IMG/VR virus record: IMGVR_UViG_3300024264_000093
Location: 1 to 34,987 of that record
DNA length: 34,987 nucleotides
Source of the DNA: a virus
Direction: 5' to 3' (one strand)
Shown here: piece after piece, positions 24,544-34,987 of the stretch
Position numbering within the stretch: the first letter of the stretch is position 1
How the letters are laid out: each line of letters begins with the position of its first letter
Translations under genes and position numbers: made by a program
The notes under the pieces: generated by a model
Told to the model about the DNA's origin: nothing
What the model saw: only the letters and a program-made list of their open reading frames with translations
Databases searched by the model: none

Positions 24544-24922
24544 CCTCTGAACCAGTCTCCCAAACTATCTTCAATGAACCATCACTAATCTCAACGCCTG
24601 TTCTATTCTTAGCTTCACCAAACCTGTCTGGCAATACCTTTTGCACTTTCCACCTTACATGATGCCCATAGTCTCTTAATAAATTAGGGTCATAGTTCTT
24701 TCGACCATGCAATGCATCACCATACATATCCTCTAGCTCCTCAAGTGCTTTCTCAGCAGCCTGTCTCTGTGCAGTCTTAACATTGGTGTCTAGCTCTGTA
24801 TCTTTGCTCATATAGCGATATAACGTAGCACGACTAACCTTTGCATCTGCACATGCTTTTACAAGGCTGTGTCCGTCTGTTATGGATGATATGATATGGT
24901 CTTGTTTTGCTTTGCTTATCAT
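24533..24922 (-). CDS. terS: Terminase small subunit-like HTH protein
   Basis: The 129-residue product has an N-terminal helix-turn-helix, 'GHSLVKACADAKVSRATLYR', then a helical oligomerisation segment 'AQRQAAEKALEELEDMYGDA' and a C-terminal 'HHVRWKVQKVLPDRFG', the common arrangement of phage small terminases. It is the first gene of the leftward virion operon. No strong ribosome site precedes ATG 24922; the nearest is a distant TAGGTAG. It would bind the packaging initiation site, possibly the GC-rich island just upstream. Confidence 0.82.
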   Translation of the reverse strand: MISKAKQDHIISSITDGHSLVKACADAKVSRATLYRYMSKDTELDTNVKTAQRQAAEKALEELEDMYGDALHGRKNYDPNLLRDYGHHVRWKVQKVLPDRFGEAKNRTGVEISDGSLKIVWETGSEDAS

Positions 24923-24956
24923 GTGTGTGTAGAACTACCTATTAACATATATAAAT

Positions 24957-25006
24957 GGGTGCACGTGCGTGTGGGGTGCATCGCCTGCGAAAACGCCCCC
25001 CATGCA
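24957..25006. other. GC-rich GTGTG/CCCCCC island beside the small terminase
   Basis: The stretch from 'gggtgcacgtgcgtgtgggg' through 'cgaaaacgccccccatgcat' is far richer in G+C than the rest of the genome. It has GGGG and CCCCCC runs and copies of TGCA(T) that could pair across a loop. It lies within 85 bp of the small terminase start. A packaging-site or origin role is inferred from location and composition. Confidence 0.45.
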
Positions 25007-25260
25007 TTCCTTAATTATTGCGTGTGTGCGTGTGTGTGTTTATTCCTTTTTATTATTGTTATTCTTTTATTGTTATTCTTTTTATTACTGTTTGTTTTAT
25101 GGTTTCTTATTTGCCGTATGAGATTGTATCAGCTAAGTGTATATTCAAATGTAAATCATTGCTCCCTTTATATGCTATCAAATAAACTATTTCTTTTATG
25201 ACATCAATAATATTTTTTACATTGCAATAATATTGCCGTTCTTATCCTACCTTGTAACGC

Positions 25261-25290
25261 TTGCCATGCCTTGAGTTATACGCTTATAAA
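25261..25290 (+). promoter_or_regulatory. Candidate rightward promoter P-early 1
   Basis: TTGCCA (25261-25266) and TATAAA (25285-25290) are separated by 18 bases, each one mismatch from the sigma-70 hexamers. They lie about 80 bases upstream of the first rightward gene. The call is based on sequence alone. Confidence 0.45.
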
Positions 25291-25309
25291 AAATATTTGC
25301 TTGTAGGTA

Positions 25310-25338
25310 TTGACATATAGAACAACGTTCATTAAGTT
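25310..25338 (+). promoter_or_regulatory. Candidate rightward promoter P-early 2 (perfect -35)
   Basis: A perfect TTGACA (25310-25315) is followed after 17 bases by TAAGTT (25333-25338), which is weak at the -10. A TATTAT at 25341-25346 is too far for normal spacing. Another isolated TTGACA with a weak -10 stands before the 29384 operon, so the two rightward operons may share an activator-dependent promoter type. Confidence 0.4.
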
Positions 25339-25372
25339 AGTATTATATTTTAATTTAGCAAAGGTTAAAAAC

Positions 25373-25984
25373 ATGAACGTACATATATCTAAAATGACAG
25401 GCAAGCTTGACGGCTTTCAAGCAATATCAACCAACACCATGACAAATCAATTTTGTATTAAACAAAATGCAAGTAATAAAGAAGATAATATTTGCACGAA
25501 ATGTTACAGTCATACAATGCTTAAAAGCTATAGAAAGAACATGCAACCAAGCTTACAACGTAACAGTGATTTATTAAGTACTAAGGTTCTAGAACATAAT
25601 CAACTACCAACGATATTAAACGCTTTCTTTCGTTTCAACGCTCATGGTGAATTAATAAATGAAACTCATTTAATAAACCTTGTAAACATAGCTTTGCATA
25701 ATCCACACTGTAACTTTGCATTATGGACGAAAAGAAACGATATTATTGCGAAATACTTCAAGTATAATGATAAACCTAAAAACTTAATACTTGTTTATAG
25801 TAATTCTAAGATATCTAACATTATGCAAAAATTACCTAAGTACTTTGATAAAACCTTTAACAACGTACTTGAAGATGAACACGTTGAAAAACAGAATTGC
25901 ACTGGTCAACAATGCAAGAATTGCTTGCTATGTTATCAACATAACGAAGTTACAACAATCGTTGAGAAAGTTAAAAAGTATTAA
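25373..25984 (+). CDS. Cys-rich Gp88-like protein (putative metal/Fe-S protein)
   Basis: The 203-residue product starts at ATG 25373 with AAAGG upstream; the longer frame would begin at TTG inside a promoter -35. The N-terminal part contains C28 and 'NICTKCYSHTMLKSYRKNMQ' (C41, C44, then Tyr). The middle holds 'FFRFNAHGELINETHLINLV' and 'NPHCNFALWTKRNDII', and the C-terminus has the cluster C176-x4-C181-x2-C184-x2-C187. This resembles the mycobacteriophage gene product 88 family (CxxCY, then RF..GD[FL] and [FW]xxTK elements), sometimes compared with radical-SAM-like folds. There is no CxxxCxxC, so radical SAM chemistry is not established. As the first early gene it may act on the host. Confidence 0.6.
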   Translation: MNVHISKMTGKLDGFQAISTNTMTNQFCIKQNASNKEDNICTKCYSHTMLKSYRKNMQPSLQRNSDLLSTKVLEHNQLPTILNAFFRFNAHGELINETHLINLVNIALHNPHCNFALWTKRNDIIAKYFKYNDKPKNLILVYSNSKISNIMQKLPKYFDKTFNNVLEDEHVEKQNCTGQQCKNCLLCYQHNEVTTIVEKVKKY

Positions 25985-25997
25985 CGCTTATACTCTT

Positions 25998-26039
25998 ATA
26001 ATACAGGTTAACGCCTGTATTATGGGAGCGTAAACGCTC
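25998..26039 (+). promoter_or_regulatory. Tandem stem-loops before the 55-residue gene
   Basis: The first stem, ATAATACAGG-TTAACG-CCTGTATTAT (25998-26023), is a perfect 10-bp stem with a six-base loop. The second, GAGCG-TAAA-CGCTC (26026-26039), follows after two bases. They are followed by ATAACCTAGCAA and an AAAAGGACG ribosome site. With no T-run, they look like RNA-processing or stability elements rather than intrinsic terminators. Confidence 0.6.
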
Positions 26040-26070
26040 ATAACCTAGCAATAACAAAAGGACGTATAAT

Positions 26071-26238
26071 ATGATTAAAAAATATAAAGCAACAATAGAA
26101 TTGTCTATAATTGTACAAGATGAAAAGACAGAAAAAGCAACACTTGAACAAATAGAAAACAAACTTGATGAACAAGCAAGAGATATAGCAGAAGATCGAG
26201 ATGCAAAAATATCTATTACTAACTTTTACGAGGCATAA
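26071..26238 (+). CDS. 55-residue hypothetical early protein
   Basis: The short frame starts at ATG 26071 after AAAAGGACGTATAAT and ends TAA 26238; the next ATG overlaps by design two bases later. The protein begins MIKKYKATIELSIIVQDEKT and is a charged beta-alpha unit (segment 'EKATLEQIENKLDEQA') without cysteines. No family is recognised. Reality is supported by the ribosome site, the upstream stem-loops and the tight junction with the next gene. Confidence 0.65.
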   Translation: MIKKYKATIELSIIVQDEKTEKATLEQIENKLDEQARDIAEDRDAKISITNFYEA

Positions 26239-26239
26239 C

Positions 26240-26380
26240 ATGACAAGCATAATAAAAGGTTATCTAAAGTTTTTAGGTTTAATAATATCAGCTATCATAA
26301 CAGTCTATATAATTTACTATTCAATATGGTTTTTATGTTTACTCAATGATAATTGCTATCACAATAATTTTAGCATCTAA
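26240..26380 (+). CDS. 46-residue single-TM early protein
   Basis: The frame starts at ATG 26240 with GAGG eight bases upstream, one base after the preceding TAA. It encodes MTSIIKGYLKFLGLIISAII followed by more hydrophobic residues, giving one membrane helix at about residues 10-35 and a polar tail with two cysteines. Tiny membrane proteins in early phage regions often target host envelope functions or superinfection, but nothing specific can be said here. Confidence 0.6.
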   Translation: MTSIIKGYLKFLGLIISAIITVYIIYYSIWFLCLLNDNCYHNNFSI

Positions 26381-26393
26381 AAACAAATAGCAT

Positions 26394-26462
26394 TGTAAAG
26401 GTTAGATTATACTAGCCTTTACATTTACAAGCCTGTTACAGGCTTAAAACGGCACTAATGCC
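26394..26462 (+). promoter_or_regulatory. Three consecutive stem-loops in an intergenic leader
   Basis: The 110-bp gap after the 46-residue gene carries three stems. TGTAAAGGTTAG-ATTATA-CTAGCCTTTACA (26394-26423) is 12 bp with one G-U; AAGCCTG-TTA-CAGGCTT (26429-26445) is a perfect 7 bp; GGCA-CTAA-TGCC (26451-26462) is 4 bp. ATAACTAGCAAAAGAG and a start codon follow. The end of the array mirrors 26026-26060, where a short GC stem with a TAA-containing loop is also followed by ATAAC(C)TAGCAA. Confidence 0.6.
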
Positions 26463-26490
26463 ATAACTAGCAAAAGAGAAAGACAATAAC

Positions 26491-26706
26491 ATGATAAAAC
26501 AAAAAATAGATATTACACCTAGTTGGAAAGCAACAAGCGAAATTATAATTATGGTTTTGCAAAATAAAAAGTTAGATGCAAAAGGATTGCAGAACGCTTT
26601 TGAAATGATACGAGAAATGGGAAGTAAATTTGATCTTGCCAACAATGAATTAAAAAAACTAGCAAAAGAGAAAGGACAACAACATGACAAACAACATGCA
26701 ATATAA
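26491..26706 (+). CDS. 71-residue hypothetical early protein
   Basis: Starting at ATG 26491 after AAAGAGAAAGACAATAAC, the product is hydrophilic and helical (MIKQKIDITPSWKATSEIII, then 'AFEMIREMGSKFDLANNELK'). Its C-terminal 'LAKEKG' codons reproduce the 16-base string CTAGCAAAAGAGAAAG that also lies upstream of this gene, where it serves as the ribosome site. In the coding copy it does the same for the next gene. No family is recognised. Confidence 0.6.
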   Translation: MIKQKIDITPSWKATSEIIIMVLQNKKLDAKGLQNAFEMIREMGSKFDLANNELKKLAKEKGQQHDKQHAI

Positions 26707-26932
26707 AAAAGCTTTAGCTAATGTTTTGTACTATCAAGCGTTAGCTATGAATAAAGCAGAACTTCAACCTGTTTTATTCTTTGAAGAATTAACAACAGAC
26801 TTTTGGACAGTTCAACAATGCCGTATTCAGTACGTCAAAGACCAATTAGAATTTATTGAAGATGGCAACATTGATGATGACATTGAAGAAACTTGGAAAA
26901 AAGTATTTAACAATGAGGAGCAAGTAACATGA
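26684..26932 (+). CDS. 82-residue hypothetical early protein
   Basis: The product starts MTNNMQYKKALANVLYYQAL and is acidic and helical, with 'FEELTTDFWTVQQCRIQYVK' in the middle and the tail 'NNEEQVT'. It overlaps the preceding gene by 23 bases, using a ribosome site inside it (AGAAAGGACAACAAC). A second possible start is Met5 at 26696. Its last eight codons lie inside a perfect 31-bp repeat shared with the next gene. Function unknown. Confidence 0.6.
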   Translation: MTNNMQYKKALANVLYYQALAMNKAELQPVLFFEELTTDFWTVQQCRIQYVKDQLEFIEDGNIDDDIEETWKKVFNNEEQVT

Positions 26933-26937
26933 CAAAA
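26907..26937 (+). repeat. 31-bp direct repeat, copy 1 (gene-junction cassette)
   Basis: TTAACAATGAGGAGCAAGTA plus the next 11 bases are identical to 27077-27107. The repeat covers the last codons of one gene (NNEEQVT), the GAGGAG ribosome site, the ATGA stop/start overlap and the first codons (MTK) of the next gene. The copies are exactly 170 bp apart. Confidence 0.9.
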
Positions 26938-27102
26938 GAACAACAACAAAAAATAATCGATCTTGTTAAAAGAGAAATTGAAATTAACAAAGAGCATCAT
27001 TATTCAACTATCACAGATGGAACGTCAGATCTTTCACAAGGTAGATTAGAATTTGCAGAAAGCCTTTTAGAAATAATTAACAATGAGGAGCAAGTAACAT
27101 GA
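26929..27102 (+). CDS. 57-residue hypothetical early protein bracketed by 31-bp repeats
   Basis: The frame starts at ATG 26929, overlapping the previous stop (ATGA), and ends TGA 27102, again overlapping the next ATG. The product starts MTKEQQQKIIDLVKREIEIN and ends 'LLEIINNEEQVT', the same tail as the preceding 82-residue protein. It is hydrophilic and helical. The repeats at both ends mean recombination could remove or insert this gene with no scar. Function unknown. Confidence 0.65.
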   Translation: MTKEQQQKIIDLVKREIEINKEHHYSTITDGTSDLSQGRLEFAESLLEIINNEEQVT

Positions 27103-27107
27103 CAAAA
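27077..27107 (+). repeat. 31-bp direct repeat, copy 2 (gene-junction cassette)
   Basis: Identical to 26907-26937; it forms the junction between the 57-residue gene and the gene at 27099. Confidence 0.9.
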
Positions 27108-27329
27108 AAAAATGAATGGCAAATAGAAAGAGAAAAGCAACAAGCCAAAAATAAAAAAGCAATGGCAAGCTTAACGTCAGAACAGATGCAAGCAATCAAG
27201 CAAACTCACAAAGCGTTAAGAGATGCTTTAAGTATGCTTACAGATTGCCATGATTTGTACTTGTCAGACATTAACAAGCTGAATGATGCTTTTTGGTCTA
27301 TCAATCATCAATTTAACTTAGAAGATTAA
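27099..27329 (+). CDS. 76-residue hypothetical early protein
   Basis: The product starts MTKKNEWQIEREKQQAKNKK, a strongly charged helix, followed by 'MQAIKQTHKALRDALSMLTD' and an acidic end. It could form a coiled coil. It overlaps the previous stop by four bases, with GAGGAG upstream inside the repeat. No known family is visible. Confidence 0.6.
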   Translation: MTKKNEWQIEREKQQAKNKKAMASLTSEQMQAIKQTHKALRDALSMLTDCHDLYLSDINKLNDAFWSINHQFNLED

Positions 27330-27337
27330 AAATAAAA

Positions 27338-27367
27338 AGGAGTTGCATACATGACAATGCAACTCCT
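27338..27367 (+). promoter_or_regulatory. Stem-loop enclosing the ribosome site of a leader ORF
   Basis: AGGAGTTGCAT (27338-27348) pairs perfectly with ATGCAACTCCT (27357-27367), an 11-bp stem with an 8-base loop (ACATGACA). The left arm includes the AAGGAG ribosome site, and the loop holds an ATG with good spacing to it. The stem would therefore hide the ribosome site of the leader ORF at 27351. It could act as an on/off element before the HTH gene. Confidence 0.6.
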
Positions 27368-27407
27368 CAACCTAGCAAAGGTAAAGGAGAAATTACCATG
27401 CAATTAA
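27351..27407 (+). CDS. Possible 18-residue leader peptide before the XRE regulator
   Basis: ATG 27351 lies eight bases after AAGGAG and opens an 18-codon frame (MTMQLLNLAKVKEKLPCN) that ends at TAA 27405-27407, ten bases into the XRE regulator gene. Such a stop/start overlap would couple translation of the regulator to the leader. The peptide has no obvious attenuation codon run. The frame could be fortuitous, since the CTAGCAAAGGTAAAGGAG block inside it is also the regulator's own ribosome site. Confidence 0.35.
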   Translation: MTMQLLNLAKVKEKLPCN

Positions 27408-27577
27408 CAAAAGAGCAATTCAAAAAGGTCAGAACAGATTTGCAGTATACTCAAAACGAGTTGGCAAAATTACTAGGAGTAACAATAAGAGCTATAAACT
27501 ATTATGAGTCAGGACAGAGACCAATTAGTAAAACAGTTTCTATTTTACTGCATAGAATTTATCAAGATGAGAAATAG
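27398..27577 (+). CDS. XRE/Cro-like HTH regulator (59 residues)
   Basis: The frame starts at ATG 27398 after AAAGGAGAAATTACC. The whole 59-residue product is one helix-turn-helix domain: 'FKKVRTDLQYTQNELAKLLG' (scaffold and first HTH helix), 'VTIRAINYYESGQRPI' (recognition helix and the conserved Y-E-x-G-x-R-x-I turn of the HTH_3 family) and a short C-terminal helix. There is no oligomerisation or cleavage domain, so it is Cro-sized. It is likely a regulator of phage early genes, and possibly the antagonist of the regulator at 29054-29269. Confidence 0.85.
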   Translation: MQLTKEQFKKVRTDLQYTQNELAKLLGVTIRAINYYESGQRPISKTVSILLHRIYQDEK

Positions 27578-27587
27578 GAGAGAGACA

Positions 27588-27725
27588 ATGAACAGATATT
27601 ATGTAGAAGTAGAACACCCTGTAAGCAACAATATTGTATATCTTTATATGTTTGCTTATGATTCTAAACAAATAATCGATATGATTGATGGAGTTATAGT
27701 AAGCATAGAAAAAGTATATGAATAA
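27588..27725 (+). CDS. 45-residue hypothetical early protein
   Basis: The product MNRYYVEVEHPVSNNIVYLY, continuing 25 more residues, starts at ATG 27588 after a strong GGAGAGAGACA site, 10 bases downstream of the regulator stop. A longer in-frame extension to 27504 would lie inside the regulator gene and lacks a ribosome site. The content is a small beta-alpha-beta type fold (alternating hydrophobics, then 'DSKQIIDMIDGVIVSIE'). Family unknown. Confidence 0.6.
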   Translation: MNRYYVEVEHPVSNNIVYLYMFAYDSKQIIDMIDGVIVSIEKVYE

Positions 27726-27730
27726 TTAAA

Positions 27731-27755
27731 TAAAAAAAAGAGAGCCTATCTCTAT
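27731..27755 (-). terminator. Probable intrinsic terminator for the leftward operon
   Basis: On the minus strand AGAGA-TAGGC-TCTCT forms a 5-bp stem followed immediately by a run of T residues (A-run at 27732-27739 on the plus strand). It would stop leftward transcription from the 29269-27940 operon before it enters the plus-strand genes. Confidence 0.5.
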
Positions 27756-27758
27756 TAT

Positions 27759-27796
27759 ATGCACTGATATATCTATGCACTGCTATATCAGTGCAT
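27759..27796. terminator. 13-bp perfect stem in the convergent intergenic region
   Basis: ATGCACTGATATA (27759-27771) pairs perfectly with TATATCAGTGCAT (27784-27796) across a 12-base loop that itself contains a third ATGCACTG. It lies between the ends of convergent operons (27725 and 27940), so bidirectional termination or RNA stabilisation is likely, though no long T-run follows on the plus side. The remaining bases to 27939 are AT-rich with an 8-bp inverted repeat ATAGTTTA/TAAACTAT (27834-27841, 27864-27871) and no gene. Confidence 0.5.
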
Positions 27797-27939
27797 TGAT
27801 ATATTACAAACTCTAATATTTTTATTTAATTTTATAGTTTACATTAATCAAAGCTTAGATACATAAACTATGTTTTGCTTATTGCCATACGGATTTGCTT
27901 AGGACAGCAAAGCTGATTTTACAAAAGAGAAAAATCTTG

Positions 27940-28200
27940 TCAAGAAAATAATTTATCTTGGATATTTTTACTAACATAACCATGCACAAAACGAGTTACA
28001 TCTCTCATACGTCTTTCAGTATCAGATAGCTCTGTATAGTACACCCAATAAGCTTCTAACGTCATTCTTGCCATAGGTTCATTGACATTGGGCAACACTT
28101 TAAAAGCAAGAAGAACTTCTATATATTTTTCTTTTGTTTTGCAAAGACGAGCTTGCTTTTTAAATACTTGGAAATCATTTTTTGCCATTGATACACTCAT
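27940..28200 (-). CDS. Hypothetical protein at the end of the leftward early operon
   Basis: The product is 86 residues if started at ATG 28200 (MSVSMAKNDFQVFKKQARLC). In-frame ATGs also occur at 28215 and 28188, and the latter has GAGTG five bases upstream. The protein is helical and basic ('TKEKYIEVLLAFKVLPNVNE', 'YYTELSDTERRMRDVTRFVH'). It overlaps the DUF6378-like gene's stop. No family is recognised. The terminators at 27731-27796 follow. Confidence 0.6.
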   Translation of the reverse strand: MSVSMAKNDFQVFKKQARLCKTKEKYIEVLLAFKVLPNVNEPMARMTLEAYWVYYTELSDTERRMRDVTRFVHGYVSKNIQDKLFS

Positions 28201-28441
28201 GGTAAGTAAGGGCATAGCCTAAAATATCTTGTATGGAATCTTCATGGTTAGGAGTTTCCATCAACCTAGCTTGTTTAACGGCTATCATACAAAGAGCCAC
28301 TTGCTCAGGTGTAACCTCAGTATTTAACAGGACAGACCATAGACGAGAAATGCGAGTATGATTATCTAAAATAGAACCATAGTCTTGTCCTCTATCTTTC
28401 ACAACATCAGCCGTCTTTTTTAGTAACTCAAATTTATCCAT
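28175..28441 (-). CDS. DUF6378-like phage protein
   Basis: The product is 88 residues from ATG 28441 (MDKFELLKKTADVVKDRGQD), overlapping the previous stop by eight bases. The patterns 'DRGQDYGSILDNHTRISRLW', 'EVTPEQVALCMIAVKQARLM' and 'HEDSIQDILGYALTYHE' match a small all-helical phage family (DUF6378). Its conserved His/Glu/Asp residues are reminiscent of MazG-like nucleotide pyrophosphohydrolases, but activity is unknown. It lies in the resolvase operon, suggesting nucleic acid or nucleotide metabolism. Confidence 0.7.
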   Translation of the reverse strand: MDKFELLKKTADVVKDRGQDYGSILDNHTRISRLWSVLLNTEVTPEQVALCMIAVKQARLMETPNHEDSIQDILGYALTYHECINGKK

Positions 28442-28688
28442 AGTAATCACAACTTTCCTTAGCTTCTTCTATCGTGGCTCTTGTAATAAACACAGGTGTA
28501 AACTTACCAGCATAAGCACCAACTACATTGAAATGAAAATACTCTAACGCTTCTTCTTCTGTCATGCCATCTCTTTTCATAAGCACATCTAAACATATCG
28601 TACTGTCATAGACTGCAACTTCATCTGCATTTGGACAAGGTATTGTTATACCTATAAATGCTCTTTCAAATCCATCAGCTAATAACAT
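28434..28688 (-). CDS. Conserved small phage protein
   Basis: The 84-residue product has the recognisable phage pattern 'MLLADGFERAFIGI', 'VYDSTICLDVLMKRDGMTEE', 'EALEYFHFNVVGAYAGKFTP' and 'VFI'. Proteins with this D-G-M-T-x-E-E-A-x-E-[YF]-x-x-F-N-V-x-G-A-[YW] core are common in phages and of unknown function. A GGGAGAG ribosome site within the resolvase gene's last codons precedes the start, and the genes overlap by 14 bases. Confidence 0.75.
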   Translation of the reverse strand: MLLADGFERAFIGITIPCPNADEVAVYDSTICLDVLMKRDGMTEEEALEYFHFNVVGAYAGKFTPVFITRATIEEAKESCDYYG

Positions 28689-29064
28689 CTCTCTCCCTCA
28701 CTATGTAAAACCATGTTTCTATATCAACCTCACAAACTAAATCATGTCCAGCACTAAAGTTCCTAGACAATACATCAATAGGAATAACACACTTTATTGG
28801 ACAGTTGTTAAACTTGTATATCAATACAGGTGTTAAGTTCAAACGCTTTGCAGCTTCTCTTGTTTGTTGCAACCAAGATTGCTTATAAGTTGTTCCTTTT
28901 TGGTACGCTTTACACTCAATAGACCACCTGGGAATAATTATATCAGCCTGTCCTTTAGCTTGGTATTGGTCTAGGTTTCTCTTGGCATCTATATTTAGAT
29001 TGTCTTTGATTAACTTGCATATCTTTCTTTCAAAAGATGCACCCTTGTTGCGACTATCTGCCAT
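28675..29064 (-). CDS. PD-(D/E)XK nuclease, Holliday-junction-resolvase-like
   Basis: The 129-residue product shows a compact PD-(D/E)XK core: 'NKGASFERKICKLIKDNLNI' with E12, 'QAKGQADIII' with D41, then 'WSIECKAYQKG' with E50-x-K52 and a following helix 'WLQQTREAAKRLNLTPVLIY'. This order and size fit archaeal-type Hjc/phage resolvase-like nucleases or VRR-type endonucleases. It would process recombination or replication branches before packaging. It overlaps the regulator gene by 11 bases. Confidence 0.75.
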   Translation of the reverse strand: MADSRNKGASFERKICKLIKDNLNIDAKRNLDQYQAKGQADIIIPRWSIECKAYQKGTTYKQSWLQQTREAAKRLNLTPVLIYKFNNCPIKCVIPIDVLSRNFSAGHDLVCEVDIETWFYIVRERDVIS

Positions 29065-29269
29065 CTATCATTCTCTCTTGCATTTGTTTTAAGAAATCAT
29101 TTGCTGATACCTGACCAAGCGTGGCTAACTCTATCTTGTTCATTGTATCAGGACTAGGAAATCTTTCAGACTTTAATAACCTACAAATAGCTGAACGAGT
29201 TAATCCTGATTTGATGGCAAACTTATTCTGTGTAAGTTTATTCTGCTTTATGTAATCAATTAATTTCAT
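29054..29269 (-). CDS. CI/Cro-type HTH regulator with leaderless mRNA
   Basis: The 71-residue product begins at ATG 29269 (MKLIDYIKQNKLTQNKFAIK). A longer frame would begin at TTG 29296, inside the promoter. The HTH reads 'LTQNKFAIKSGLTRSAICRL' followed by 'LKSERFPSPDTMNKIE', typical of the lambda-repressor-like fold. There is no C-terminal LexA-like domain. The -10 element ends six bases before the ATG, so the transcript should start at or next to the A of ATG, as for lambda cI from PRM. It is the first gene of the leftward resolvase operon and sits beside dyad operator sequences. Confidence 0.82.
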   Translation of the reverse strand: MKLIDYIKQNKLTQNKFAIKSGLTRSAICRLLKSERFPSPDTMNKIELATLGQVSANDFLKQMQERMIDGR

Positions 29270-29275
29270 ACTGCT

Positions 29276-29304
29276 ATAATATTTAGTTGTTGACAATCTG
29301 TCAA
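29276..29304 (-). promoter_or_regulatory. Strong leftward promoter (TTGACA-17-TATTAT) giving a leaderless transcript
   Basis: On the minus strand the -35 TTGACA (29304-29299) and -10 TATTAT (29281-29276) are separated by exactly 17 bases. Transcription would begin about 29269, the first base of the regulator's start codon. Confidence 0.75.
29290..29304. promoter_or_regulatory. Putative operator dyad TTGACA-ATC-TGTCAA
   Basis: A perfect 6-bp inverted repeat with a 3-base centre overlaps the leftward -35. A third TTGACA half-site lies at 29323-29328. It is likely to be bound by the adjacent HTH regulator or the Cro-like protein at 27398; this is inference from position. Confidence 0.5.
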
Positions 29305-29322
29305 TTATAATTAAATAATATG

Positions 29323-29351
29323 TTGACAGTAAAGATTATAAAGCATAACCT
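29323..29351 (+). promoter_or_regulatory. Candidate rightward promoter for the recombination operon
   Basis: TTGACA (29323-29328) is followed after 17 bases by TAACCT (29346-29351), a poor -10 match. A perfect TATAAT stands at 29306-29311 but with a weak -35 (TTAGTT). The combination suggests a regulated or activator-dependent promoter divergent from the repressor promoter. Confidence 0.45.
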
Positions 29352-29383
29352 AGTAATCAATAGCAAAGAAATGGAGGTTTATT

Positions 29384-29788
29384 ATGAATGAAGATTTATG
29401 TTTATGGTGCAGAGAAGATACATCATTTGGCTCAGGAAAGTTTGTTAATCGCATACCAGCAGACAGACAAGATGGCATTGATGATAAGTACGAAAGTGGT
29501 TTTATGTGTGCTGATTGTCAATGTGTAGAGTGTGATGTTTGCAAAGAAAGTAAGATGGATTATGACATAACAGAAAATGCAAACATTATTTGTCGTGATT
29601 GCGTTGATGACAAAATGCTTTTCTTACATCAAGAAGATATGGTTAAAAAGTTTGGGCATTTATTTAAGATTGATATTAAAAACTTTGAATATGGTGGGGA
29701 ACAATGGGAAAAGTTTATAGATGATTTACGAGGTCTAACTTATGTTGATAGCGTTGAAGATGGTTATTTAGTACAGGAGATAATATAA
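29384..29788 (+). CDS. Cys-rich zinc-binding protein
   Basis: The 134-residue product begins MNEDLCLWCREDTSFGSGKF. Cysteine pairs at 6/9, 42/45, 47/50/53 and 70/73 (CLWC, CADC, CVEC-x2-C, CRDC) indicate two zinc sites, like a zinc ribbon or RING-like fold. The C-terminal part is acidic with 'GYLVQEII' at the end. AATGGAGG precedes the start, and the last base of its stop is the first base of the exonuclease start. It may be a DNA-binding or adaptor protein for the recombination module; no family is recognised. Confidence 0.65.
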   Translation: MNEDLCLWCREDTSFGSGKFVNRIPADRQDGIDDKYESGFMCADCQCVECDVCKESKMDYDITENANIICRDCVDDKMLFLHQEDMVKKFGHLFKIDIKNFEYGGEQWEKFIDDLRGLTYVDSVEDGYLVQEII

Positions 29789-30678
29789 TGGCTGAGATAC
29801 CTGACTACAGAATAAACTTTGGCATGAAACACGAGAGTTCTAGTAATGCAACCATACCTAAAGATGAAATGGTGCTAAAACATTACCTGAGAAAAGAACA
29901 TAAAATGTCTTTTCCTATGGCATCACGACCAATCTCAGGCATCAAAGTACAGACAGGTTCAGACTGTGCTATGGGATTACATAACTTTAGTCCAATCAGA
30001 GGACAACAAGACCCTATGGAAATCAATGAGTCTGTTAGATATGCTCTTACAGAGTACCAAGGCTATACACCTAGAACATGGGACAATGGTAAAGATGCAG
30101 AAGAATACGAGGAGTTTCGTGAGCATCTACCTGAGATGATCAAACATGCAGTTGATGGACTGCACAAATATTTCGAGGGTGTCAATCGTATCGAGGGAGA
30201 ATCAATGAAACAATTCATTGAACCTAAGATAGATGTACCTATAGTTTTATATCAGGATTACTCAGGTGGCGGCAGACAGATTGATTTAAAATGCTCTCTG
30301 CCTATGAGGAACCCACCAAAGAAAGATGGAACTAGGTCTTGGCGTATACCTAAACCTAAGACAGAACCATCTGTGCAACAAGTAATGCAACAAGCAGTCT
30401 ATTGGAAAGCTACAGGAGAGAAACCAGCTTTGTTATTTGTTACGGCATCAGGCTATAACATAGTAGACGAAACGAATTGTGAGCTTATGACAGAAGATAA
30501 TCTGCAAAGAGCTTATGATGATGTAGTACGTTCTTGGTTAGTTACACAGAACTTACTCAAAGCAAGTCGAGGTTCATGGAAAACATTAGCTGGGTTAGTT
30601 CAGCCTGACATGGTGCAACTATCAGCTAGACATGGACCTAAAATAACACAACTAGCAAAACAACTATGGGAGATTTAA
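29788..30678 (+). CDS. PD-(D/E)XK exonuclease (RecB/Cas4/YqaJ-like)
   Basis: The 296-residue product contains, in order, an early Ser/Arg-rich region with 'MASRPISGIKVQTGSDCAMG', a long helix (107-130), 'IEPKIDVPIVLYQDYSGGGR' with D157, 'QIDLKCSLP' with the D166-x-K168 catalytic motif, and the downstream helix 'VQQVMQQAVYWKATG', which supplies the Q-x-x-x-Y of RecB-family nucleases. Together with the annealing protein and SSB-like protein downstream, it makes a lambda Red-like pair: 5' end resection followed by strand annealing. I cannot tell whether it is processive. Confidence 0.78.
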   Translation: MAEIPDYRINFGMKHESSSNATIPKDEMVLKHYLRKEHKMSFPMASRPISGIKVQTGSDCAMGLHNFSPIRGQQDPMEINESVRYALTEYQGYTPRTWDNGKDAEEYEEFREHLPEMIKHAVDGLHKYFEGVNRIEGESMKQFIEPKIDVPIVLYQDYSGGGRQIDLKCSLPMRNPPKKDGTRSWRIPKPKTEPSVQQVMQQAVYWKATGEKPALLFVTASGYNIVDETNCELMTEDNLQRAYDDVVRSWLVTQNLLKASRGSWKTLAGLVQPDMVQLSARHGPKITQLAKQLWEI

Positions 30679-30679
30679 C

Positions 30680-30886
30680 ATGACTAAATTAATTAATGAA
30701 AAACTTAACATAACATTGAGTTTAATATCTGACCTTTATTGGGAGTACGATAGAATGTCTAGTAGCGGACAGTTTACATTAGACAAACTAGCTAAACTTT
30801 ACGGCATAGAAACTAATGCAGAGTTAGAAGAACGTATGTCTAAAATGACAAAAGAAGAAATGAAACAAGAATTGGAGAATTTATAA
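30680..30886 (+). CDS. 68-residue hypothetical protein
   Basis: The product MTKLINEKLNITLSLISDLY, with 48 further residues, is an acidic helical protein with a possible helix-turn-helix-like segment ('GQFTLDKLAKLYGIETNAEL'). It starts one base after the exonuclease stop and shares its stop with the next start (TAATG). The HTH resemblance is weak and no function is assigned. Confidence 0.6.
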   Translation: MTKLINEKLNITLSLISDLYWEYDRMSSSGQFTLDKLAKLYGIETNAELEERMSKMTKEEMKQELENL

Positions 30887-31245
30887 TGACAGATCCAAAA
30901 ACATTAAGACGTAATATTGATCCTAGAACTAGCCATGATAGTGCTTACAAAATACAAGCATCACAGATGGAGAAAATAGTCCTTGGAGTTATAGATTCTT
31001 TTGGAGAAACAGGTTGTATATCAGATCAGGTGCAGTATGCCCTACCACAATACCGATACAGCACGATTACAGCACGCTACAAGGCACTAAAAGATAAAGG
31101 ACTAGTGATTGTAGATGGAAGTGCAGTTAAAGGCGAGAGTGGCAGAAAACAGATGATAATGTGGAGTTCAAGACATTACTTCCATCAGCCTGTAACTGAC
31201 GAAGATATAATACAACACATGGCAGAAGAAAGAGCTGGGATATGA
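30886..31245 (+). CDS. Winged-helix DNA-binding protein
   Basis: In the 119-residue product the central part fits a winged helix: 'QMEKIVLGVIDSFGETGCIS' (helix 1), 'DQVQYALPQYRYSTITARYK' (helices 2-3), 'ALKDKGLVIVDGSAV' and the wing 'GESGRKQMIMWSS'. The T-x-x-x-R-x-x-x-L-x-x-x-G-x-[IV] pattern is common in phage winged-helix proteins. It could regulate this operon or help initiate replication; context favours DNA metabolism. The start overlaps the preceding stop by one base. Confidence 0.7.
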   Translation: MTDPKTLRRNIDPRTSHDSAYKIQASQMEKIVLGVIDSFGETGCISDQVQYALPQYRYSTITARYKALKDKGLVIVDGSAVKGESGRKQMIMWSSRHYFHQPVTDEDIIQHMAEERAGI

Positions 31246-31427
31246 TTAACGAATTAGTCAATAAATGGACAAAAGAGATGACTGATACTGAGCAGTATCA
31301 TGCACAAGCTATAGATCTATTAGAGAAACGTATAGCAAAACTAGAGGATAAGCACAAAGTTGTATCACAACAGAACGAGGTGCTTATGAATTTATTAAGT
31401 AAAACAATGAGAGGGAAAGATGAGTAA
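31242..31427 (+). CDS. 61-residue coiled-coil protein
   Basis: The product MINELVNKWTKEMTDTEQYH and the following 41 residues form a continuous charged helix with Leu/Ile heptads (QAIDLLEKRIAKLEDKHKVV). It overlaps both neighbours (ATGA at its start, 8 bases at its end). It may be a dimerisation or accessory factor for the annealing protein. No family is recognised. Confidence 0.6.
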   Translation: MINELVNKWTKEMTDTEQYHAQAIDLLEKRIAKLEDKHKVVSQQNEVLMNLLSKTMRGKDE

Positions 31428-32091
31428 TCTAGCTAAAACTATGGACACTATCGCAGACTTACACAAGTCGCATGGTGTCAAACAAAAAGGTGGCAAACTT
31501 TATACACAGGTTGTGCATAGAATGGAAGCCTTTAGACGTATACATGGCACAGACTTTGGTCTTGATACTGAGATACTAGTTAATGATGGCAAGAAAGTTG
31601 TTGTCAAAGCTATTATCACAGACAAAGATAATCGCAAGGTAGGTGCTGGTATGGCAGAAGAAATCAGAGGACAGGGCATGGTCAACACTACATCTGCCTT
31701 GGAGAACGCTGAAACCTCTGCAATAGGTAGAGCTTTGGCTAGTCTTGGTCTTGCTGGTGGCGAGTATGCAAGTGCTAATGAACTTGATGCAGTCGAGAGA
31801 AAGACAGAAGCCTTGAAAGAGGAACCTGTCGAAAAACCTAAGATTCAGTTTAAAGATATACGACAAAAAGAAATAACACCTGAAGAAAGGAGAGAAAGAC
31901 ACGAAGAAAAGATACCTGACTTTGATCATTGGTGTCAGCAGAAAAGAACTAAGGATCAATTAGATGCTTATTACAATGATTCACAGTCTACGTTAAACGA
32001 AATCAAAGAACATAATCCTGACTTGTATAAGAAAGCAATACAGGTTTTTGTTAAATATTTAGATAAATTTGAAAGGAAAGAAAATGGCTAA
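31420..32091 (+). CDS. Erf/Rad52-type single-strand annealing protein
   Basis: The 223-residue product has the conserved core of phage annealing proteins: 'VVHRMEAFRRIHGTDFGLDT', then 'KKVVVKAIITDKDNRKVGAG', 'MAEEIRG' and the signature 'NTTSALENAETSAIGRALAS' followed by 'LGLAGGEYASANEL'. The last 90 residues are a charged, helical tail. It would anneal complementary strands after resection by the exonuclease. The exact superfamily (Erf or Rad52/Sak) is not settled by eye. GAGGGAAAG precedes the start. Confidence 0.75.
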   Translation: MSNLAKTMDTIADLHKSHGVKQKGGKLYTQVVHRMEAFRRIHGTDFGLDTEILVNDGKKVVVKAIITDKDNRKVGAGMAEEIRGQGMVNTTSALENAETSAIGRALASLGLAGGEYASANELDAVERKTEALKEEPVEKPKIQFKDIRQKEITPEERRERHEEKIPDFDHWCQQKRTKDQLDAYYNDSQSTLNEIKEHNPDLYKKAIQVFVKYLDKFERKENG

Positions 32092-32422
32092 TAAATATAT
32101 TAAGACTGCAAACATAACCTTGTACCCTAACTCAGAGGGCAAGGCTACACATGGTAACTCTAATTGGAAACCATTTAAAGATGGCTCCCCAGCAGATATA
32201 CATCTTAGAAAAGATGCAAAGTATTCTGTAAAACTATTTGGTAATGATGATGGCACATTTGGTCTGTCAATATCAGAGGTTGTTGTAGGCAACTACACAG
32301 ACAGTATATCAGATGGAGTGTCACAACCTGGAATGAGATCACTTGCACAGACAATAGACCCACCAAAACCTAGTCCTATTGCTGCTTTAAAAGATGAGCT
32401 TGATGATGAAATACCATTCTAA
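32084..32422 (+). CDS. ssb: SSB-like protein with acidic DDEIPF tail
   Basis: The 112-residue product starts at ATG 32084, overlapping the annealase stop, with AAGGAAAG upstream. Beta-strand-rich residues 1-75 ('KYSVKLFGNDDGTFGLSISE') are followed by a Pro/Ser linker and the C-terminal tail 'KDELDDEIPF', closely matching the bacterial SSB tip (DDDIPF) that recruits host replication and recombination proteins. The OB fold is plausible but not proven. Even if it is not an SSB, the tail would mimic one. It fits the neighbouring recombination genes. Confidence 0.6.
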   Translation: MANKYIKTANITLYPNSEGKATHGNSNWKPFKDGSPADIHLRKDAKYSVKLFGNDDGTFGLSISEVVVGNYTDSISDGVSQPGMRSLAQTIDPPKPSPIAALKDELDDEIPF

Positions 32423-32594
32423 ATCATACTATTCCACACAGGAAGCTACCGAACTGATGTTTGGAGATACTCCAAGTAATAGAAAAAGACTTCTTCGTTT
32501 GTTACAGAACGGAGAGGTCAAAGGTAAAAAGTTTGGTAAGAGATGGTTTGTATATTCTAGTGAAATAAAGGGAGAGGATAATGAATTACGATAA
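32403..32594 (+). CDS. Excisionase-like HTH protein (MerR/HTH_17 type)
   Basis: The 63- or 62-residue product starts at ATG 32403 or 32406; the frame extends to 32394. It overlaps the SSB-like gene by about 20 bases. 'YYSTQEATELMFGDTPSNRK' then 'RLLRLLQNGEVKGKKFGKRW' and 'FVYSSEI' fit the helix-turn-helix DNA-binding domains shared by excisionases and small phage regulators (S-T-x-E-A followed by G-x-V-x-G-x-K-x-G-x-x-W). No integrase is present, so a regulatory or replication role is more likely than excision. Confidence 0.7.
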   Translation: MMKYHSKSYYSTQEATELMFGDTPSNRKRLLRLLQNGEVKGKKFGKRWFVYSSEIKGEDNELR

Positions 32595-32934
32595 GGCTGG
32601 TAAAAGTTTTGATTGTTGTGGTTACTGTGGTGTCAAGCTAAAGGAAGTAGGACACCCAAGAAACAAAGTTATACGTTGTCGTGAATGTGTATTTTTAGGT
32701 TTAGGATTGAACACTAGCAAAAACACAAAAGTTACAGATGATGAAGATTGGAGTACACAAGACGATCCAAGAGCCATAAATGAAATACAATACGGCAAAG
32801 TTTCTAGGCAACCAACAGTTATGAATTACGGAGTATCAGACTTATCAGCTATCATGCTTGACTCAGGACCATACAGACACAAACATGGCTCTGCTAGAGA
32901 TGGCACTAGATTTACCTACAAGAAGAAAAAATAA
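32581..32934 (+). CDS. Small zinc-finger protein
   Basis: The 117-residue product contains 'FDCCGYCGVKL' and 'VIRCRECVFLG', giving a C-x2-C...C-x2-C zinc site near residues 12-36. A disordered middle is followed by a basic end ('RHKHGSARDGTRFTYKKKK'). It is the last gene of the rightward operon and overlaps the HTH gene by 14 bases. It may bind nucleic acid. No family is recognised. Confidence 0.65.
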   Translation: MNYDKAGKSFDCCGYCGVKLKEVGHPRNKVIRCRECVFLGLGLNTSKNTKVTDDEDWSTQDDPRAINEIQYGKVSRQPTVMNYGVSDLSAIMLDSGPYRHKHGSARDGTRFTYKKKK

Positions 32935-32962
32935 TTATTTCTTTTTCTTCATAATCTTTTTT

Positions 32963-32995
32963 TGCAAAGCAATAGGCAATGTCTTTTGCTTTGCA
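32963..32995. terminator. 10-bp stem in the second convergent junction
   Basis: TGCAAAGCAA (32963-32972) pairs perfectly with TTGCTTTGCA (32986-32995) across a 13-base loop. It is placed between the ends of the rightward operon (32934) and the leftward lysis cassette (33010), with T-rich sequence on both sides. It is probably a bidirectional terminator. Confidence 0.55.
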
Positions 32996-33009
32996 GTTAG
33001 ACTTTTCTT

Positions 33010-33261
33010 CTAACACTTCCACCTACGTCTAGCGGCTTTACCTCTAGGACCTGTCCAACTCTTAGACCTAGCACAAAAGCTCTTTCTTCTCTTAGCATCT
33101 TTACTTCCAGCTTTGACCTTACCTGTTACAGGTGCTTTTAATTTACTGCCTGTTGCACGATTATACTTAGCTCTGCCTTTTGCAGTTAGTCCACCACCCT
33201 GTTTAACTGATCTTTTTTCTCCACGACCAACAGAAAGATTTACACTTTTCTTCTTAGCCAT
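33010..33261 (-). CDS. Basic conserved phage protein (DUF6321-like)
   Basis: The 83-residue product is very basic. The core 'KQGGGLTAKGRAKYNRATGS' followed by 'KLKAPVTGKVKAGSKDAKRR' and 'KSFCARSKSWTG' matches a conserved family seen in many marine phages (G-G-L-[ST]-x-K-G-R, then R-R-K-S-F-C-A-R). The function is unknown; nucleic-acid binding is plausible. It overlaps the endolysin stop by 8 bases and ends the leftward cassette. The usual 'ARM.G' after 'SFCAR' reads 'ARSKSW' here. Confidence 0.75.
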   Translation of the reverse strand: MAKKKSVNLSVGRGEKRSVKQGGGLTAKGRAKYNRATGSKLKAPVTGKVKAGSKDAKRRKSFCARSKSWTGPRGKAARRRWKC

Positions 33262-33700
33262 TAATCAATCCATGTCTATAGCCGTTAAGCCTGTCGTATG
33301 TAAGCACTTCTTTTCTACCATTCTCTGCATAACTACAATGTACCCAGCCAGTATTACCACCAGTATAACATTCTAATATAAGCTGATCGAATTCTAAGTT
33401 TTCTCTTATCCACACAGCAAGATCATAGTTATCTACATTAGCCACCTCAAAGTCTGCTGCTTGCCCTTTACAATGCTGACTATCTTTGGAACTGCCGATA
33501 GATATTGACAACTCAGGACATCTGTAACCTGACGAAACCATAAAGGAGCCATACTCATTACGGATTGGCTGTAATATATTTTCAGCTAATAGCTTTAGAT
33601 TATACACAGCATCTGCATCAGGTATGTTTGTTATACCTCTACGTTCTGCTGTCTGACTCTTTGTTAACTCAGATATTGTAAAGTTTTTAGATAGTTCCAT
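33254..33700 (-). CDS. M15-family peptidase endolysin
   Basis: The 148-residue product carries the zinc peptidase motifs of the VanX/endolysin M15 family: 'FMVSSGYRCPELS' (SGYR 57-60), 'DSQHCKGQAADFEV' with H76 and D83, and 'GWVHCSY' with H121, the three zinc ligands. The N-terminal 'FTISELTKSQTAERRGI' is the usual lead of this phage family. It should cut peptide cross-links in the host cell wall. No signal peptide is visible, so release depends on the nearby holin candidates. Confidence 0.9.
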   Translation of the reverse strand: MELSKNFTISELTKSQTAERRGITNIPDADAVYNLKLLAENILQPIRNEYGSFMVSSGYRCPELSISIGSSKDSQHCKGQAADFEVANVDNYDLAVWIRENLEFDQLILECYTGGNTGWVHCSYAENGRKEVLTYDRLNGYRHGLING

Positions 33701-33948
33701 TACTTTTTCTTTGCTGTCTTTGCTGCACGCTTGAAGTTCTTAGCTGTAGGTGCACCTTTACTTCCAGGCTTTCTCATCTTTTCCTTAGAACCAGCTGCAA
33801 TTCTTTTTCTTTTAGCGTGAATGTTAGCGTATAAACCTTTTTTCATATCTTTCTCCTGTTTCTTTCTAAGCGTCTTCACATGAAGATAGTAGAAATAATT
33901 ACCAATCTTATTAAAAAATTTAGCTAAACTCAACCAAAACCACATCAT
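33700..33948 (-). CDS. Amphipathic micro-protein fused in frame to a basic phage protein (two possible starts)
   Basis: The full frame (82 residues, ATG 33948) begins MMWFWLSLAKFFNKIGNYFY, an aromatic amphipathic helix, and runs without a stop into a basic part starting at Met35 (MKKGLYANIHAKRKRIAAGS). ATG 33846 has AGGAGAAAGAT before it, so a separate 48-residue protein is likely made from the internal start. The basic part, with 'KMRKPGSKGAPTAKNF', is widespread in marine phages as a stand-alone gene. The first part resembles the 32-residue product of 33945-34043. Both products may be made. Confidence 0.7.
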   Translation of the reverse strand: MMWFWLSLAKFFNKIGNYFYYLHVKTLRKKQEKDMKKGLYANIHAKRKRIAAGSKEKMRKPGSKGAPTAKNFKRAAKTAKKK

Positions 33949-34043
33949 TTTTTTATACTCTTGTTATGCTTGACAGATTTAAACCAAAAATAATCAGATA
34001 TAGCTTTAAAAAATTCGTATAAGTACATGAAAAACTTACTCAT
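33945..34043 (-). CDS. 32-residue amphipathic micro-protein
   Basis: A frame of 33 codons starts at ATG 34043 overlapping the holin stop (ATGA) and ends TGA 33945 overlapping the next ATG (ATGATG). The product MSKFFMYLYEFFKAISDYFW continues 'FKSVKHNKSIKK'. It aligns with the start of the next protein: FF-x-x-I-x-[DN]-YF, then VK. The stop/start overlaps on both ends support translation. It could insert in or lie along the membrane. No family is recognised. Confidence 0.6.
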   Translation of the reverse strand: MSKFFMYLYEFFKAISDYFWFKSVKHNKSIKK

Positions 34044-34435
34044 TTTGTTAATCCTTTTTGCTTTTCATATGTTCTAAGTCCACCCAATCCGAGCATACCC
34101 ATCAATACAGTCATCAAGGAACCCATATCAAACGTAGGTAAATCAGGTATAATTACATCTAAATAAGCACACACAAACATAGTAACAGGTGCTAATACAA
34201 AGTGCCAACACAACGCTACACCACAAGTCCAGCCAATGAAAGGTCTCCATCCAGCAACAAATATAGATTTATGTGTGGCTTCTGCTTTGTTTATATCTAG
34301 CTGACCTTTAGCTAATTCTTGTGCATGATTCTCTGCCATAGTTGCCACCTCATGTGCCAACTTGTTCTTCATGTCTTTGTCTTCTATAAACTTACCGAGT
34401 AAATTACTTACTGGTCCTATTAACGCTGTTAACAT
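34040..34435 (-). CDS. 3TM holin (GTA_holin_3TM-like)
   Basis: The 131-residue product starts at ATG 34435 after AAGGGAGACAATA; the upstream extension to 34480 has no ribosome site. An N-terminal amphipathic helix and a charged helix (residues 20-55) are followed by the signature 'SIFVAGWRPFIGWTCGVALC' and then two further hydrophobic segments (about 77-95 and 105-120). The WRPF-x-GW pattern identifies the 3TM holin family known from gene transfer agents and many phages. It should permeabilise the inner membrane for the M15 endolysin two genes downstream. Confidence 0.85.
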   Translation of the reverse strand: MLTALIGPVSNLLGKFIEDKDMKNKLAHEVATMAENHAQELAKGQLDINKAEATHKSIFVAGWRPFIGWTCGVALCWHFVLAPVTMFVCAYLDVIIPDLPTFDMGSLMTVLMGMLGLGGLRTYEKQKGLTK

Positions 34436-34640
34436 TATTGTCTCCCTTATGTTCGTGACCCATCCATATACCAAATACACCAGTCATTACACCCATAACC
34501 ACAGATACAAATGCAGACTGACTAGCAGTTGGTGCATCTAAATCCATAAACCATTCGGCACATCTCCAGGACATTATTGTACTAGCAAGCATCATAAATC
34601 TTGGTAGTATCTTCCATTTTAAAAATGTTTCTACATTCAT
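34404..34640 (-). CDS. Two-TM small membrane protein (holin-like)
   Basis: The 78-residue product starts MNVETFLKWKILPRFMMLAS. It has hydrophobic segments at about residues 12-30 and 42-62 with an acidic turn between them ('WFMDLDAPTASQSAFVS'), and a charged tail. This pattern is common next to lysis genes in marine phages. It overlaps the 3TM holin gene by 32 bases. It may be a second holin or antiholin (inferred from topology and location). Confidence 0.7.
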   Translation of the reverse strand: MNVETFLKWKILPRFMMLASTIMSWRCAEWFMDLDAPTASQSAFVSVVMGVMTGVFGIWMGHEHKGDNNVNSVNRTSK

Positions 34641-34840
34641 TGTATTAAAATCTCGTTCAAACCAAAGCCTTCTAATAAGACTAAAGTAAAAAATAATAAT
34701 AATATACCACCAGCTATTAGTTTACCACTAAAGTTAGTAGATCCTATCTTAATCGCAACAAACTCATTGCCTAGTATTCTAAGTGACAGCTCAAAAGAAT
34801 TGTTACTTAAATCTAAGTTTATTAATTTCTTTTCTGTCAT
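34637..34840 (-). CDS. One-TM small membrane protein
   Basis: The 67-residue product starts MTEKKLINLDLSNNSFELSL, has a hydrophilic first half and a membrane helix at about 43-60 ('GGILLLFFTLVLLEGFGL'). It overlaps the upstream gene (ATGA) and the downstream gene by four bases, so it belongs to the same translationally coupled cassette. Its family is unknown. Confidence 0.65.
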   Translation of the reverse strand: MTEKKLINLDLSNNSFELSLRILGNEFVAIKIGSTNFSGKLIAGGILLLFFTLVLLEGFGLNEILIQ

Positions 34841-34987
34841 TTGGCTATACTCCTAAGACTTTCCATTACTTTATCAATATCTGGTTCATCGCCATTCGGA
34901 TTGTAAATACATTTATATTGTTTGGGGCAGTTTTTTTCTATCATCATTTCAAAAGTTTTATTGCCACCTTGATAGATACATGCTTGT
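34837..34987 (-). CDS. Single-TM membrane protein of the lysis cassette, 3' part (split by contig ends)
   Basis: This continues the gene that begins at ATG 703. The frame enters from the right edge within the terminal repeat and adds 'IDKVMESLRSIAK' after the repeated part, ending TGA 34837 overlapping the next ATG. The three base differences from the left copy are all silent (CAG/CAA, GCG/GCA and ATA/ATC). It is the same protein as the 1-703 entry. Confidence 0.85.
   Translation of the reverse strand, partial: QACIYQGGNKTFEMMIEKNCPKQYKCIYNPNGDEPDIDKVMESLRSIAK
34878..34987. repeat. Terminal direct repeat, right copy (contig overlap)
   Basis: Matches bases 1-110 except at 34975, 34981 and 34987, which are all silent differences. 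See the left copy. Confidence 0.9.

Follow-up and report, generated by a model that had tools for sequence, protein, structure and literature searches.

The locus described here raises a simple question: what does a divergent promoter region with the geometry of a temperate phage immunity region do in a phage in which no integrase is visible? The original prediction read it as a lambda PRM-like leaderless repressor switch that might time early transcription, mediate a carrier state or confer superinfection immunity. The comparisons made here point to a different answer, which we regard as probable, if well short of certain: a leaderless orphan Cro that probably regulates its own gene and sits at a divergent control region for early transcription, in a lineage that has neither CI nor integrase. 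The promoter elements, their fixed geometry, the divergent promoter, the family and Cro position of the protein, and the lack of an S24 repressor and an integrase were all established by comparison.

The window (the whole stretch of DNA that was analysed) comprises the 34,987 bases of an IMG/VR virus record and represents an HTVC010P-type (pelagiphage-like) podovirus. Phages of this type are among the most abundant marine viruses and, to our knowledge, their gene control is almost unstudied. The phage belongs to this group by its homologous portal/terminase module, synteny and size of about 35 kb; its portal protein shares 55-58% identity with its counterparts in HTVC010P, HTVC024P, Greip and further HTVC010P-type pelagiphages. 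A megablast search against phage records gave no match to the window. When the window is aligned to a 33 kb relative, its two ends map to points separated by about 440 bases, a gap covered by 358 bases of window sequence; since the ends adjoin in this way, the genome is judged close to complete. No polymerase was recognised among the scanned proteins of the phage in a search that was not exhaustive, and its replication was counted as host-dependent. Elsewhere, the window encodes a holin of the gene-transfer-agent type (34040-34480, minus strand; PF11351, E 1e-20), here in a podovirus, and a Gp88-like protein (25310-25984, plus strand; PF17338, E 3e-8) whose gene starts with TTG, 19 bases downstream of a near-consensus promoter.

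Two promoters stand back to back at the locus. The leftward one is the near-consensus TTGACA-17-TATTAT of the original prediction, confirmed at 29304-29276 on the minus strand: the -35 TTGACA (29299..29304) and the -10 TATTAT (29276..29281) are separated by a 17 bp spacer, and a discriminator of six bases, AGCAGT (29270..29275), lies between the -10 and the ATG at 29269, the A of which is the predicted +1. This is one of three sigma-70-like sites matching at 11/12 positions in 24800-34987. Among 45 gene starts checked, only this one has a promoter (at most two mismatches) that ends 10 bases or fewer before the start codon. The gene behind it encodes a Cro-type HTH (XRE) regulator of 71 aa (29054..29269, minus strand), and the second gene of the leftward operon, which overlaps the HTH stop, encodes a PDDEXK or Holliday-junction-resolvase-like protein (28675..29064, minus strand).

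The rightward promoter, on the plus strand, consists of a -35 TTGACA (29323..29328) and a -10 TAACCT (29346..29351) that reads TAATCT, TAATAT, TAGAAT or TAGTAT in relatives. All 38 unique relatives have TAnnnT at spacer 17 after this TTGACA and none has it at spacers 13-16, 18, 19 or 21, which bears out the claim that the third TTGACA serves the divergent operon. The operon begins with a gene for a Cys-rich protein (29384..29788, plus strand) that has a GGAGG ribosome site and is missing from several relatives, such as L005. It continues with an exonuclease-like gene (29788..30678, plus strand), which has weak homology to pelagiphage 'putative nuclease' genes and whose synteny matches HTVC024P and Greip, and with a probable single-strand-annealing protein (31420..32091, plus strand; phrog_11717) that is syntenic with annotated single-strand-annealing proteins.

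What kind of regulator does the leftward gene encode? The 71-aa protein matches HTH_3 at E 1.7e-4 (22 bits, slightly below the cut-off of 23) and the phrog_35 repressor at E 4e-6. Its predicted structure is a five-helix XRE domain (pLDDT 93.6), for which Foldseek returns the YdaS, SinR, C-protein and P22 c2 folds, at E values above 0.01. YdaS (solved structures 8co2 and 8c7k), which is among the best matches in both sequence and fold, was shown to act like Cro (PMC8630535). The protein is thus a small single-domain HTH_3/XRE fold of Cro size; it stops at 71 aa and lacks a C-terminal domain, including the cleavage and dimerisation (S24) domain that marks lambda CI.

Family membership leads to the same assignment. 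A scan of viral contigs with the HTH protein gave 60 loci, and a profile of 21 members added 30 loci from genomes of alphaproteobacteria and, in a few cases, Pseudomonas. The divergent neighbour of the cellular homologues is an HTH protein in 8/8 cases scanned and carries Peptidase_S24 in 7/8. These CI-like neighbours identify the family as the Cro partner of CI/Cro-type switches, and the analogy with lambda CI and PRM is not supported: a protein of Cro size, with no C-terminal domain, has homologues that oppose S24 CI-like repressors. Upstream of the alphaproteobacterial homologues, TTG occurs at -36 to -34 from the ATG in 15 of 17 non-redundant cases (background 9%), which is where a -35 box must sit if the ATG is +1, and a perfect 15-bp palindrome with 5-bp arms is found in 10 of the 17, where 1.0 is expected. 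By this comparison, leaderless start geometry is a lasting property of the whole alphaproteobacterial Cro family. In Parvibaculum and relatives (L203, L205, L206, L208, L210, L213 and L214), a family member lies in frame with the start of sucA, and this 2-oxoglutarate dehydrogenase E1 is apparently fused to a Cro-like N-terminal domain; a 15-bp palindrome, TTGCCTCTATGGCAA, just upstream of the HTH-sucA gene is a possible autoregulatory site.

If the protein is a Cro, its most obvious candidate operator is the 15-bp dyad TTGACA-NNN-TGTCAA at 29290..29304. The perfect TTGACA-ATC-TGTCAA dyad that had been reported to include the -35 was found there as the sole copy of this sequence in the window. 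Its left arm is the -35 of the HTH promoter, and its right arm with two further bases forms a box, TGTCAACA (29288..29295, minus strand), that is near-invariant within the promoter spacer. The window holds 19 perfect 6-3-6 palindromes, so the dyad is not remarkable by itself and was dropped as a statistical argument; it is the only one of the 19 that falls in the intergenic gap of this locus.

Its conservation, in contrast, is far beyond chance. Close relatives were counted as 40 unique 110-base upstreams, leaving out L048, where one extra base lies between -35 and -10 and the -35 sits 36 bases from the ATG. In these 40, ATTGACAG (-36 to -29), which includes the whole -35, is invariant, and the TGTCAACA columns (-26 to -19) are invariant with one exception. 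Conservation of dyad and promoter in relatives had been set beforehand as the test on which the original prediction could fail, and both were found conserved.

These observations make it likely that the dyad is the operator of the HTH protein, a judgement that depends on sequence comparison. What weighs against it is that phages lacking such an HTH gene at this position still retain the right arm. Moreover, in clades without the box at 29323 the reverse complement of TGTCAA serves as the rightward -35, followed at spacer 17 by TA in 15 of the 25 clusters and, in most others, by a plausible -10 at 16-18. Persistence without the HTH gene together with use as a -35 weakens the proof of an operator, and the second fact means that a dyad can arise from two opposed, abutting -35 boxes. 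It could then be nothing but two hexamers for which polymerases compete, with the HTH protein acting elsewhere or not at this region. Of the eight clusters that keep the box although some other gene comes first in the operon, none has a perfect palindrome, and the left-arm variants TTTACA, TAGACA and TTGCCA are changes tolerable in a -35. Within the window clade, however, the rightward promoter uses the box at 29323 (38/38), and yet TGTCAACA is near-invariant over eight bases. The -10 that the right arm would serve varies: the second candidate rightward promoter would pair TTGACA at 29290-29295 with AATAAT at 29314..29319 (plus strand, 18 bp), and the AATAAT columns are less conserved than the TGTCAACA box. 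In two clades, L189 and L194, one arm is altered at its sixth base and the 5-bp arms still pair. Finally, 15-bp palindromes of equal format stand upstream of the cellular homologues, TTGAC-N5-GTCAA here resembling, for example, TTGCC-N5-GGCAA there. Abutting -35 boxes as the whole explanation are for these reasons rather unlikely, though a serious competitor.

As a separate observation, the rightward -10 in clusters without the box at 29323 is often TAnnAC (TACGAC, TAACAC, TAGAAC, TAAGAC, TAGGAC), an unusual pattern that recurs in unrelated clades.

A likely operator and a Cro-type protein leave the question of lysogeny. No Peptidase_S24 repressor was found in the 18 phage records of the group, HTVC028P included; without one there is no CI/Cro pair and hence no bistable switch for lysogenic immunity. 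Nor does the divergent strand supply a partner regulator gene, the rightward operon beginning with the Cys-rich gene or the exonuclease. That no integrase is visible was upheld: neither the record nor 11 relatives gave a PF00589 or PF00239 match to an integrase or resolvase, in a search aimed at these families rather than separately at serine-recombinase accessory domains, transposases or partition genes. The integrase of HTVC028P, detected as the positive control, was the only one among the phage records searched. A terminase scan of 84,980 species genomes, which detects close relatives only, found no related prophage, and HTVC010P-related phages without integrase have been predicted to be lytic (PMC6811365).

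Against this background it is quite improbable that the HTH protein is an immunity or carrier-state repressor that silences the early genes, so that the phage persists without integration or superinfection is blocked. The protein does have the CI/Cro family fold, the control region does resemble temperate immunity regions, and HTVC028P, a related member of the group, carries both an integrase and XRE regulators. However, S24 repressor, integrase and resolvase are lacking from this and the related complete-length records. The temperate immunity switch thus lost support, with no CI/Cro pair and no positive evidence for lysogeny, a carrier state or superinfection immunity. The phage appears to be strictly lytic, and lysogeny is not supported. 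The term orphan here means that no S24 domain was found; it is possible that an unrecognised repressor lies among the many unknown genes. In HTVC028P itself, gp05 (L066 2325-3821) is an HTH protein that heads the rightward operon, between the control region and the nuclease; it is a candidate CI equivalent, and its full-length similarity to phage regulators is weak.

The reading of the gene as an orphan Cro includes a leaderless mRNA, and here the comparisons are most precise. T-12, A-11 and T-7 are unchanged in 40/40 unique upstreams of relatives, and the letters between the -10 and the ATG differ while their number is fixed at six. Among diverged phages, 17 of 29 non-redundant upstream clusters, or 17 of the 24 that have no ribosome site, have TAnnnT precisely six bases upstream of the ATG; other offsets account for 0-2 of the 29, and control starts from the same loci for 1.7% (n=692). 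The 29 clusters share ancestry and are not independent events, so that a binomial value computed over them does not count as a true probability. Still, so sharp a peak, shared by diverged and by unrelated first genes, is difficult to account for unless transcription begins at the ATG. Sister clades (L085-L103) carry a weaker -10 at a distance of five to six bases from the ATG; since this -10 (TGTTACAAG) fits spacer 16 as well as 17, those clades were not counted for the six-base gap.

The start codons agree with this geometry. No Shine-Dalgarno sequence precedes the HTH ATG, and the start is ATG in 160 of 161 family members. Leaderless mRNAs prefer AUG, and the one exception fits for that reason: C72C1 has GTG together with a ribosome-site leader. 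Such leaders are also found in the HTVC010P and HTVC204P versions of the gene. Upstream in-frame starts (TTG at 29296) are unlikely, as clades differ in the length of the spacer upstream of the -10 but not in the -10-to-ATG gap. A leadered mRNA, starting about 28 bases upstream from TTTACT-18-TATAAT and translated without a Shine-Dalgarno, has a 10/12 promoter match to its credit (TTTACT at 29333, TATAAT ending at 29304, minus strand) but is highly improbable, the weakest of the readings weighed here, given that its -10 shows weaker conservation (A as the second base in 35/40, against 40/40 for the -10 nearest the ATG) and missing from diverged clades that retain the -10 six bases before the ATG, and that its transcript too would have no ribosome site. 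A leaderless transcript of the HTH gene, with its predicted start at the ATG, is strongly supported; the geometry claimed for it at the outset held in all 40 close relatives and in 17 of the 29 diverged clusters.

The junction between promoter and ATG is also kept where the first gene is a different one. Three loci, L038, L042 and L053, have a methyltransferase-like gene (193 aa; phrog_757, E 5e-64; 125-703 in L038) between the promoter and the HTH gene, with its ATG exactly six bases past TATTAT. More distant phages, found via the exonuclease, carry behind the junction an HTH gene (43-50% identity) or, in its place, an unrelated zinc-finger-like gene. The latter (MTTIIFTFDDEVECPECGG...), a first gene located upstream of the exonuclease in L170-L178 and L180, shows the same geometry, TAnnnT standing six bases before its ATG. 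It is tempting to speculate that these phages inherit a leaderless cassette, in which a promoter fused to the start codon stays while the first gene (Cro, methyltransferase or zinc-finger protein) is swapped, but we put this forward only tentatively. If it holds, leaderless expression would be selected per se, perhaps because it would permit translation by 70S ribosomes during the first minutes of infection, and the orphan Cro would be merely one cargo. A junction kept through gene change makes the reason for leaderless phage mRNAs testable by gene-swap constructs.

A working model can be outlined for the orphan Cro. Host sigma-70 RNA polymerase would start the HTH mRNA at the A of the ATG, and the leftward operon, headed by Cro, would continue into the resolvase-like nuclease so that both are made. 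The back-to-back promoter would drive the rightward recombination operon (exonuclease and annealing protein) from an mRNA with an ordinary ribosome-binding leader. The most likely target of a Cro dimer is the 15-bp dyad that overlaps the -35 of its own gene; binding there would give negative autoregulation, and the dimer perhaps also binds the copy of TGTCAACA at the rightward -35. Binding could then shut down early transcription or hand it over. The dyad centre lies about 61 bases upstream of the predicted rightward start (29358), a distance that simple occlusion would not span; repression of the rightward operon would therefore need the copy at 29323; activation of this operon by Cro is possible as well. 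The actual transcription start, the binding to the dyad, the direction of regulation and the role in timing are what we infer from the layout.

The two-way promoter region suggests a temperate-phage switch reduced to its lytic half. A conserved region that is CI-less and Cro-only would show the remnant of such a switch after the loss of lysogeny, and it offers exact sites for testing.

Comparison with known systems shows which features are shared. The other HTVC010P-type pelagiphages have the same 35-kb genome, structural gene order and divergent nuclease/annealing operon. HTVC010P and HTVC204P also have an HTH gene at the equivalent place, but theirs is leadered, with a ribosome site, and Greip and HTVC024P lack the gene. 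A literature search found no paper describing leaderless mRNAs in pelagiphages. Such mRNAs are common in some alphaproteobacteria, with 375 in Caulobacter (PMC4117421).

The Cro genes of alphaproteobacterial prophage-like loci (L211-L227) are alike in encoding a homologous HTH protein (33-45% identity) and in having TTG 34-36 bases before the ATG and a 15-bp palindrome upstream. They differ in that they face a CI-like S24 repressor and that their palindrome lies between the -35 and the -10, not on the -35. Lambda cI, as transcribed from PRM, shares with the present gene a leaderless mRNA, divergent promoters and the HTH fold (partly covered in PMC4488713 and PMC8630535), whereas the phage described here has no C-terminal S24 domain, Cro partner, three-operator array or integrase.

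The YdaS/PaaR2 region of prophage CP-933P (E. coli O157:H7) comes close. It has a small XRE Cro analogue, which provides the nearest solved structures, and divergent promoters about 100 bp apart with one regulator leaderless (PMC8630535). There, however, it is the CI analogue, paaR2, that is leaderless, and both partners are present, while the phage studied here has a predicted leaderless Cro side and no CI. In the telomere phage PY54, RACE showed that the mRNAs of both cro and cI lack leaders, and Cro has one operator site to which it binds (PMC4488713), as may be the case for the candidate site read from the sequence here; but PY54 is a temperate plasmid prophage with a CI, and its Cro site is found on the cI promoter side rather than over the cro -35. 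Leaderless mRNAs of phage regulators are therefore already known, from lambda cI, from PY54 cI and cro, and from paaR2. What is new is the predicted CI-less, Cro-only arrangement, with a junction between promoter and start codon that is conserved through gene replacement.
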